From Pseudomonadota bacterium (GTDB taxonomy: Bacteria; Pseudomonadota; Gammaproteobacteria; Burkholderiales; Burkholderiaceae_C): a stretch of DNA of 64,000 nt. The stretch is taken from positions 52,198 through 116,197 of the forward strand of contig CAUJIM010000017.1 in assembly GCA_963205335.1 (NCBI GenBank), given 5' to 3'. How positions within the stretch are numbered: position 1 is the first letter of the stretch; every line of letters begins with the position of its first letter. Positions 6,668 to 62,882 of this stretch are shown here, one piece after another. The position numbers were made by a program, and so were the translations under genes. The notes under the pieces were generated by a model that saw only the letters and a list, made by a program, of their open reading frames with translations, was not told the origin of the DNA and made no database searches.

Positions 6668-6680
6668 CTGTGTTCTCCTG

Positions 6681-6722
6681 TATTGATAGCTGCTGGCGCT
6701 TTATGGACAAGCGCTAGAGGGT
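6681..6722 (-). repeat. Dispersed palindromic repeat, copy A
   Basis: TTGATAGCTGCTGGCGCTT followed by a short loop and AAGCGCTAGAGG. It is the reverse complement of the family seen at 20195, 28359, 32761, 33910 and 62392. It sits between adhC and fghA. Confidence 0.75.
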
Positions 6723-6736
6723 GATTCCGTTCAAAT

Positions 6737-7894
<1,158 letters not shown>

Positions 7895-20166: not shown

Positions 20167-20194
20167 GCGGCGCGAAGTTATCAGTGTTTCTGGG

Positions 20195-20237
20195 CACCAG
20201 CGCTTGCCGGGCAAGCGCTGGCAGCTATCGATTCGAT
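20195..20237 (+). repeat. Dispersed palindromic repeat, copy C (best palindrome)
   Basis: CCAGCGCTTG-ccggg-CAAGCGCTGG, a perfect 10-bp stem, followed by CAGCTATCGATT. It lies between convergent acnB and tolA, where it could also work as a terminator or RNA-stabilising hairpin. Confidence 0.8.
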
Positions 20238-20272
20238 AATGGATCGGACTGCCGAAGAGGCAGTCGCCAGGC

Positions 20273-28299: not shown

Positions 28300-28358
28300 C
28301 GGGGCGTGATTGTCCCATGGGGCAGGGCGCGCCGGCCCCGTGCGGGGTTTTGCATCAA

Positions 28359-28408
28359 AAAGGCCTGAAACCCTTGCACAGAAAGCGCCAGAAGCTATCG
28401 AAAAAAGA
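28359..28408 (+). repeat. Dispersed palindromic repeat, copy D
   Basis: CTTGCACAGAAAGCGCCAGA followed by AGCTATCGAAAAA, a diverged unit of the family, placed between hpnC and hpnD. Confidence 0.65.
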
Positions 28409-28409
28409 G

Positions 28410-32299: not shown

Positions 32300-32755
32300 A
32301 TGAAAGTCCGCGACATCCTGCGCCTGAAAGGCTCGGCGCTCTACACCACCACGCCCGAGGACAGCCTGGCCGACGCCGCGCGCGTGATGTCCGAGAACGA
32401 CATCGGCTCGCTCGTCGTGATGGCGCACGAGCGCGTGGTCGGCATCCTCACCTTCCGCGAGGTGATCGACGCGGCGGTGAGCAACGGCGGCAGCTTCGAG
32501 GGCCTGTCGGTGTACCGCAGCATGGACCCCGGACCGCTGATCTGCACGCTGGAAACCGAGCTCGACGAGGTGCGCCGCATGATGCTCGACCGCCACGCGC
32601 GCTACCTGCCGGTGATCGACAACCGCCGGCTCATGGGCGTGATCAGCTTCTACGACGTCGCCAAGACCGTGGTGGACAGCCAGAACCTCGAGAACAAGCT
32701 GCTCAAGGCCTATATCCGCGACTGGCCCGAGGAAACCGAGCCGTCGGAAAAATAG
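32300..32755 (+). CDS. CBS-domain pair protein
   Basis: 151 aa from the ATG at 32300; the track start 15 codons earlier has no support. Two CBS motifs make up nearly the whole protein ('SLADAARVMSENDIGSLVVM...VGILTFREV' and 'LDEVRRMMLDRHARYLPVID...MGVISFYDV'). Stand-alone CBS pairs bind adenine nucleotides and act as energy or redox sensors, but no partner is evident. TATATT about 45 bases upstream could be its -10 element. Confidence 0.88.
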   Translation: MKVRDILRLKGSALYTTTPEDSLADAARVMSENDIGSLVVMAHERVVGILTFREVIDAAVSNGGSFEGLSVYRSMDPGPLICTLETELDEVRRMMLDRHARYLPVIDNRRLMGVISFYDVAKTVVDSQNLENKLLKAYIRDWPEETEPSEK

Positions 32756-32760
32756 TAATG

Positions 32761-32815
32761 AAAAACGGCTTTTGCGCTTGCCTGTCAAGCGCCGGAAGCT
32801 ATCAAATCAATAATC
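32761..32815 (+). repeat. Dispersed palindromic repeat, copy E
   Basis: GCGCTTGCCTGTCAAGCGCC followed by GGAAGCTATCAAATCAA, just after the CBS gene and 14 bases before aroC. Confidence 0.78.
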
Positions 32816-33905: not shown

Positions 33906-33909
33906 ATTC

Positions 33910-33962
33910 CAAGCGAAAAACATCGCTAGCAGGCGCCAGTCAAGCGCCGGCAGCTATCATTT
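33910..33962 (+). repeat. Dispersed palindromic repeat, copy F, overlapping the nrdR 3' end
   Basis: GGCGCCAGTCAAGCGCCGG followed by CAGCTATCATTTCC. On the minus strand the TATCAT part supplies the TGA stop codon of nrdR (33957-33959). Confidence 0.75.
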
Positions 33963-34406
33963 CCGTACCTTGTCGACCAGTGCCTTGAACTCGTCGATGT
34001 GCTCGAAGCTGCGGTAGACGCTGGCATAGCGCACGTAGGCCACCTTGTCGAGCTTCTGCAGCTCGCGCATCACCATCTCGCCCAGGCGGTTGGACAGCAG
34101 CTCGCGCTGGCCCGACTGCAGCAGGCGCTCCTCGATGTGCTCGATCGCGGCGTCCACCTGCTCGGTGCTCACCGGGCGCTTGCGCAGCGCGATGTGGAAG
34201 GACCCGACGAGCTTTTCCCGGTCGTAGTCGACGCGCCGCCCGTCTTTCTTGACGATGGCCGGAAAGCGCACCTCGGGGCGCTCGTAGGTGGTGAAGCGCT
34301 TGTCGCAGGCGCTGCAGCGGCGCCTGCGCCGGATGAAGCCGCCATCCTCGGACACGCGGGTCTCGACGACCTGCGTCTCCGGGTGGTTGCAGAAGGGGCA
34401 CTTCAC
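33957..34406 (-). CDS. nrdR: Transcriptional repressor NrdR
   Basis: 149 aa from a GTG at 34406 ('[17 protein letters not shown]'). An N-terminal zinc ribbon with two CxxC pairs ('CPFC', 'CSAC') precedes an ATP-cone domain ('[24 protein letters not shown]'-like region; [12 protein letters not shown] here). NrdR binds (d)ATP and represses ribonucleotide reductase operons. It follows glyA on the same strand (18-base gap), a common betaproteobacterial pair. Its stop codon lies in a repeat unit. Confidence 0.95.
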
Positions 34407-61542: not shown

Positions 61543-61911
61543 ATGAAAAAGCATTCCGGCCCCCACCGCGAGCTGCGCATCGCCGACCAGATCCAGCGCG
61601 ATCTGGCCGAGCTGATCCGCACGCTCAAGGACCCGCGCGTCGGCATGGTGACCATCCAGGCGGTGGAAGTCACGCCCGACTACGCGCACGCCAAGGTGTA
61701 CTTCAGCGTGCTCGTGGGCGACGGCGAGACCTCGCGCGAGGCGCTCAACCAGTCTGCGGGTTTCCTGCGCAACGGCCTATTCAAGCGCCTCGCGATCCAC
61801 ACCGTGCCGACGCTGCACTTCATCTACGACCGCACGCCGGAGCGCGCGGCCGACATGAACGCGCTGATTGCGCGCGCCGTGGCCTCGCGCTCCAAAGACG
61901 GGGACGCATGA
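61543..61911 (+). CDS. rbfA: Ribosome-binding factor A
   Basis: 122 aa. '[49 protein letters not shown]' region is the KH-like fold of RbfA (quoted in part: [20 protein letters not shown]). It binds 16S rRNA helix 1 during cold adaptation and 30S maturation. The stop overlaps the truB start by four bases. Confidence 0.96.
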
Positions 61912-62882
61912 CGACGGCTGCCCCTCGCATCCGGGTGCAGCGGCGCCCGGTGCATGGGGTGCTGCTGCTGGACAAACCCCTGGGCCTTTCCAGCAACCAG
62001 GCGCTGCAGAAGGCCAAATGGCTGCTGCGCGCCGAGAAGGCGGGCCACACCGGCACGCTCGACCCCATGGCCACCGGCGTGCTGCCGCTGTGCTTCGGCG
62101 CGGCCACCAAGTTCAGCGCGCTGCAGCTCGATGCGCCCAAGCGCTACGAGGCGCTGGCGCTGCTGGGCGTGACCACGAGCACCGGCGACGCCGAAGGCGA
62201 GGTGCTCGCGCGCCGGGCGGTGGACCCCGCCGTGCTCGCACCCGAGCGCCTGGCTGCCGTGGCGCGCGCGTTCACCGGCGCGATCCGGCAGGTTCCGCCG
62301 ATGTACAGCGCGCTCAAGAAGGACGGCAAGGCGCTGTACGAATACGCCCGCGCGGGCGTAGAGGTCGAGCGTGCGCCGCGCGAGGTCGAGATATTTGAGC
62401 TTAATCTGGCTCCAGCGCTTGTGGAGCAAGCGCAAGCAGCTATCAAAATAGATGTTTCCTGCAGCAAAGGCACCTACATCCGCACGCTGGCCGAAGACAT
62501 CGGACAGGCCCTGGGTTGCGGCGCGCACCTCGTGGCGCTCAGGCGCACCGAGACCGGCGGCATCGGCCTTGCGCGCTGCACCACGCTGGCCGCGCTCGAA
62601 GCCCTGCCCGAGCAAGAGCGGCTGGCGCATCTGCTGCCGGTCGATGCGCTGCTCGCCGGCCACGTCGGCATCACGCTGGGCGAACAGGAGGCGGGGCGCT
62701 TTCTCTCCGGCCTGCGCCGGCGCGGCCCGTGGCCCGACGCCGCAGCCGCCGCCGTCTACGGCGAAAACCCGCGCGCGCTGCTCGGCGTGGGCCACGTCGC
62801 GGCGGGCGAACTCATTCCGGACCGGCTCCTGAGCCCCATCGAAATCCAGCAAATCCTGCAAAAAGAAGCACTGCCATCATGA
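61908..62882 (+). CDS. truB: tRNA pseudouridine(55) synthase TruB
   Basis: 324 aa. The catalytic aspartate is in '[15 protein letters not shown]' (about residue 54); '[15 protein letters not shown]' and '[19 protein letters not shown]' follow. It makes pseudouridine 55 in the T-loop of tRNAs. Residues about 162-182 ('[20 protein letters not shown]') are encoded by A/T-rich codons that match the dispersed repeat (copy G). They lie in a variable strand region, so activity is probably kept. Confidence 0.95.
62392..62454 (+). repeat. Dispersed repeat copy G, read in-frame inside truB
   Basis: GCTCCAGCGCTTGTGGAGCA followed by AGCGCAAGCAGCTATCAAAATAG. It keeps the palindrome and the CAGCTATCAAAA tail of intergenic copies, yet contributes about 20 residues to TruB without a stop. 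Confidence 0.75.

Follow-up and report, generated by a model that had tools for sequence, protein, structure and literature searches.

A dispersed palindromic repeat is carried in frame within truB in many genera of Comamonadaceae

Results

A repeat copy within truB

The stretch of DNA analyzed here (64,000 nucleotides, hereafter the window) encodes the tRNA pseudouridine-55 synthase TruB on its forward strand, and one segment of this gene is an almost complete copy of a ~62-nt dispersed repeat. The truB features and the other repeat copies in the window are as follows.

61908..62882, + strand: truB (tRNA pseudouridine-55 synthase), 324 aa, host of the repeat (open reading frame; Pfam TruB_N and TruB_C_2; PDB 1k8w/1r3f; Foldseek)
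62391..62453, + strand: truB repeat copy, in frame, residues 162-182, predicted beta-hairpin (profile, PWM, codons, AF2)
62415..62421, + strand: left arm GCGCTTG of the 7-bp stem of the truB copy (sequence)
62427..62433, + strand: right stem arm CAAGCGC of the truB copy (sequence)
6675..6737, - strand: repeat copy, not open in frame (L050; profile, context)
20193..20239, + strand: partial repeat copy, not in-frame coding (L051; flank test)
28347..28409, + strand: repeat copy, not in-frame coding (L052; flank test)
32752..32813, + strand: repeat copy, not in-frame coding (L053; flank test)
33906..33966, + strand: repeat copy, weaker (profile)

The match at 62391-62453 (+) scores 54 bits against a profile built from 40 other copies (E-value 6.8e-16 in the window and 3.2e-14 genome-wide). 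With a PWM built without the truB copy it scores 71 bits, compared with about -30 elsewhere in truB. The original prediction had placed a copy of the repeat inside this gene, and its coordinates were right to within a base or two. It had also pointed to rare codons: the 21 repeat codons are indeed the rarest in truB (rank 1 of 303 windows of 21 codons; mean relative codon usage of 0.28 in the repeat segment versus 0.49) and include ATA twice, AAT, TTT, and AAA. The suggestion of about 20 extra or replaced residues holds for the number derived from the repeat (~21) but not as a gain, the hairpin being just four residues longer than in Escherichia coli and repeat-free relatives.

TruB retains its domains and fold despite the repeat (Pfam TruB_N and TruB_C_2; Foldseek match to 1k8w), and the GTLDP and KGTYIR motifs are present. 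Mapping onto the structure, as had been proposed, places the segment in a hairpin. In an AlphaFold2 model (pLDDT 85.7, from an alignment of 24 TruBs), residues 158-172 and 176-185 form two strands with a tight turn, and most of this hairpin (158-185) is encoded by the repeat, which makes the repeat-encoded segment a confidently predicted beta-hairpin. The model matches E. coli TruB 1k8w with a TM-score of 0.81 (Foldseek). The repeat is tolerated in frame, as claimed, but the accompanying label of an essential-type gene suits LpxB, TilS, and similar hosts (see below) better than TruB, because truB is dispensable in E. coli.

Distribution of the truB copy among relatives

A comparison of TruB genes among relatives revealed repeat DNA at exactly the same codons in ~58 of 126, counted as PWM scores (matrix without truB) above about 10 bits at a fixed distance from KGTYIR; the score is about -30 elsewhere in each of the 126 genes. 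The carriers are core Comamonadaceae, and their records include Comamonas, Simplicispira, Diaphorobacter, Acidovorax, Giesbergeria, Ottowia, Rhodoferax, and Polaromonas. The repeat is absent from truB in other families and in basal members of this family, where the hairpin is shorter: the distance from the end of YAR to the end of KGTYIR is 44 residues in the repeat clade and 40 in basal Comamonadaceae, other families, and E. coli. Protein-level conservation of the segment in distant TruBs would have spoken against a repeat origin; in other Burkholderiales families and E. coli the hairpins are shorter and bear no resemblance to it. Because distant TruBs lack this resemblance and both the peptide and the in-register repeat DNA recur in close genera, the peptide AQAAIKI is repeat-derived and tolerated, as first suggested.

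What truB carries is one copy of a dispersed palindromic repeat specific to the family, held at one site in many Comamonadaceae genera with the reading frame intact. Given the clade-limited register and the lengths of 44 versus 40 residues, the sequences make it most likely that truB acquired the repeat a single time, early in core Comamonadaceae, and grew by 12 nt overall. This ancient event is common to the core of the family, neither recent nor local. The 40-residue hairpin also occurs in some Variovorax and Ramlibacter, where we read it as later shortening. A perfect stem is kept in just 3 of 91 truB orthologs, and conservation of the stem in truB was rejected on this basis.

The truB score rises with the number of repeat copies in the genome (Spearman 0.83, n=36, uncorrected for phylogeny). 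It is always at least 26 bits in genomes with at least 12 copies, and negative in most of those with 0 to 3. Three genomes (G028, G021, and G029) have almost no core copies, yet keep a truB remnant. One congener (G002) has three exact copies genome-wide; its truB and lpxB signatures are lost and the purK signature is kept (L009, L299, L482).

The dispersed repeat family

The repeat has a consensus of about TTTTGAATnAAATcnGGCTCTAGCGCTTGccnGGCAAGCGCnAGCAGCTATCAAAnnAGtAG (from 98 other copies in the genome) and a 7-bp stem, GCGCTTG/CAAGCGC. The 3.0-Mb assembly contains 99 instances of its exact core, AAGCGCNNGNAGCTAT, against 0 matches for the reversed control, and profile search finds at least 150 copies genome-wide (150 candidates were scored by the profile). 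With these counts and its stem, this is a many-copy dispersed palindromic repeat. Copies are found in 11 convergent spacers and 1 divergent spacer. A search of Rfam gave no family match for the repeat, and full-text searches of the non-subscription literature, on the repeat sequence and on repeats of Comamonadaceae, returned nothing relevant. The largest family seen is that of G024, with 451 exact-core copies in 4.3 Mb; this genome also has 20 Y1_Tnp matches. In G013 there is an apparent strand bias among the matches listed, which we put down to the extent of those matches.

Other coding copies share one reading frame

Coding copies were found by testing codon usage in both flanks of 174 copies and then applying family models and comparing orthologs. 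Besides truB, this genome has the repeat in frame in LpxB, PurK, ProA, Tex, TilS, and UvrA, in three acyl-CoA carboxyltransferases, in the Lpd linker, and at a PxpB-PxpC junction, all in the sense frame used in truB. The truB gene is one of about a dozen repeat-bearing coding genes. The single sense copy in a different frame is in a HAD phosphatase, and antisense copies lie inside the conserved genes for PutA aldehyde dehydrogenase (L058), MutS (L441), and AroE (L464). The names Tex, MutS, AroE, and PutA are presumed from sequence recognition, with no family model above cut-off.

One frame is used by 12 of the 13 sense coding copies (P=7e-5, and 4e-4 once paralogs are merged, taking into account how often each frame is open). 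Because five of the six frames are open in about half of the non-coding copies, this concentration exceeds mere availability. The translated core of the repeat reads ...PALxxQAxAAI.... The Lpd and PxpBC copies sit in linkers, where tolerance is unsurprising. In the three paralogous carboxyltransferases (L057, L442, L454) the repeat occupies one shared site, which implies either an insert that predates the duplications or conversion between paralogs. In an apparent PxpB-PxpC fusion at L035:564-2411 the linker consists of the repeat, which may have made this gene fusion.

Length changes in the host proteins

Insertion of ~62 nt predicts about 20 additional residues per protein, and the observed changes range from 0 to +19. 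Relative to repeat-free orthologs, the net gain is 4 aa in TruB, about 4 to 6 in TilS, 6 to 8 in Tex, and 14 to 19 in ProA (from two repeat-free comparators, G009 and G016). The net change is 0 for LpxB in all 28 orthologs compared and for PurK in all 18 (PurK and TilS lengths were taken from alignment). The PurK peptide QAxAAA is largely present in repeat-free orthologs too, with different codons. Because LpxB and PurK carry the repeat without a change in length, these comparisons suggest that its arrival is in part a replacement of native sequence, not a simple insertion. Net lengths this variable favor short templated replacement, through template switching or gene conversion at partial homology, over clean transposition. 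Neither a recombination intermediate nor a donor copy was found, which we count against templated replacement.

The ProA proteins of G004 and G001 (L267, L268) have a 78-aa extended segment, as in repeat-bearing congeners, that resembles the repeat at neither the DNA nor the protein level. It reflects either complete decay or an independent insert.

Retention of third bases in the truB segment

Where the amino acid is the same, A/T third bases are kept at 0.58-0.63 in the segment versus 0.27-0.29 in the rest of truB, and where it has changed, at 0.37-0.39 versus 0.11-0.12 (segment codons 18-23, tree distances 0.6-1.0), a comparison that the ancestral A/T state biases in favor of the segment. 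Third-position rates are lower in the segment under a two-state model (joint P about 0.001, six codons), and parsimony counts of third-position changes show no slowdown relative to the rest of truB. Strong DNA constraint on the whole segment was rejected: the striking first count was circular, the taxa having been picked by score, and unbiased tests were mixed.

Discussion

Comparison with known repeat systems

Two articles (PMC10969869, PMC6649704) describe the Rickettsia palindromic elements (RPEs; Ogata et al., 2000, 2002), the precedent for palindromes inside protein genes, and the former gives their length as ~150 bp. Like RPEs, our repeat is a short palindrome found between genes and in frame in unrelated housekeeping genes (TruB, LpxB, ProA, Tex, TilS, PurK, UvrA, the carboxyltransferases, and others), with a recurring peptide tolerated by the host protein and a repeat identity that fades over time. 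RPEs belong to intracellular Rickettsia, whereas this repeat is shorter and occurs in many genera of GC-rich betaproteobacteria. It also differs in that an extra peptide of about the length of the element is not seen (0 to +19 aa; TruB +4, LpxB 0, PurK 0). RPEs are the closest precedent, and the repeat is an RPE-like coding repeat, likened by description and not by sequence. Much like the coding repeats of Rickettsia, it has persisted in core proteins across many genera.

Other known palindromes include the REP or GTAG-tagged palindromes with RAYT transposases, in which REPs measure 20-40 bp (PMC2817692, PMC3733652). The repeat resembles them in its many dispersed palindromic copies and its excess in convergent over divergent spacers; it differs in its length and its in-frame coding copies, and for the REP tag GTAG/CGTC it shows just a weak AGTAG at the 3' end of the consensus. 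Neither article mentions Acidovorax, Comamonas, or Polaromonas. No PF01797 match, as expected of a RAYT (Y1) transposase, was found in this genome (G000, 86.6% complete) or in the complete genome G006, and both mobilization by RAYT and a RAYT-linked REP were rejected for this reason. Intragenic MITEs, ERIC, and RU elements can form ORFs, according to PMC2759123 and PMC5896051, the former giving 103-168 bp for RU elements. These too are small repeats able to join coding sequence. MITEs have terminal inverted repeats, whereas the aligned copies here have a central palindrome and no clear terminal repeats.

Neisseria DUS and Haemophilus USS are genic motif families with a frame preference and hairpins between genes, and their cores of 9-12 nt are far denser than this repeat. 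The likeness lies in motifs within genes that favor a frame, the difference in the ~62-nt length and lower density found here, and we know of no link between this repeat and uptake.

None of the papers found in the non-subscription literature describes this coding repeat. Palindromes within coding sequence had been described as peculiar to Rickettsia, and the same phenomenon is now seen in GC-rich betaproteobacteria, here in one fixed frame, in conserved enzymes, and in dozens of genomes. Whether small repeats give proteins new peptide, and how they enter, thereby becomes testable by comparison. Most informative of all are the proteins without length change (LpxB and PurK), since they are not easily explained by transposition.

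Origin and maintenance of the truB copy

We consider it probable that a family-specific palindromic repeat was written into truB by replacement and then mostly inherited. On the branch to core Comamonadaceae, one copy would have been written into the hairpin loop of TruB, mostly replacing the native loop and adding 12 nt. The favored frame (...PALxxQAxAAI(K/E)I...) would give a turn that is free of stops and rich in Ala/Gln, and then a short strand, and such a peptide would suit surface hairpins, helices, and linkers, which may be why the copy survived in TruB. Since its entry the segment would mostly have passed down by inheritance while the stem decayed, and some lineages would have trimmed or lost the repeat. 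Passive inheritance alone does not predict the retention of A/T third bases, and this counts against the account.

It is possible, although we incline against it, that a MITE- or RPE-like element of ~60 bp jumped in frame into truB and other genes, and that deletions later trimmed the proteins toward their native length. Such insertion would fit the nearly full-length gain in ProA (the most lineage-restricted case), the smaller gains in Tex, TilS, and TruB, and the presence on both strands of hundreds of copies, most of them extragenic; it has to contend with LpxB and PurK, which lack any indel among 28 and 18 orthologs, and with the absence of a Y1-type transposase from this incomplete genome and the complete congener G006. 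Spread outward from a coding segment, for example lpxB or purK, is quite improbable: both match the repeat at unchanged length and with a peptide like the native one, but at the DNA level most of their repeat-free orthologs do not resemble it (about -29 to -76 bits), the two genes cannot both be the source, and the AT-rich ends of dispersed copies reach past the LpxB match. The probability that an ordinary TruB hairpin resembles a GC-rich palindrome by chance is negligible. The helix motif ALAxQALAA is common and easily encoded in similar ways, but a match of 54 bits (E=3e-14 genome-wide) recurs in the same register in dozens of genomes with AT-rich codons that run against the bias of truB, and the in-register orthologs together with the profile E-value rule chance out.

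The retention of A/T third bases even where the amino acid differs, along with the lower modeled third-position rate, bears on a reading that we find doubtful, namely that the motif is kept or spread for a role at the DNA level (a protein-binding or uptake-type site, or gene conversion among copies), with coding copies marking sites that the protein tolerates rather than favored peptides. The repeat-like DNA in PurK, which encodes QAxAAA residues shared by repeat-free orthologs, the tracking of genome copy number by truB, and the lack of truB and lpxB signatures in G002 agree with such a role. The parsimony counts, the stem broken in most truB orthologs, the confounding of the copy-number correlation by phylogeny, the purK copy kept in G002, and the truB remnants in G028, G021, and G029 argue against it. 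A broader reading also seems rather unlikely to us, in which the dispersed palindrome was repeatedly copied into core genes of the whole family by short templated replacement, with no insertion required, and then held partly by DNA-level maintenance, through selection on the motif or ongoing gene conversion. If true, a genomic repeat would be shaping protein sequence.

A second repeat family may be translated as well. In UvrA (L248:1-1800, G000:C103), PHPHPLPEGEGV directly follows the repeat-coded stretch and resembles another common coding-region repeat, and a similar sequence, PSPQPSPQRGEGAR, lies upstream of TruB in L141.
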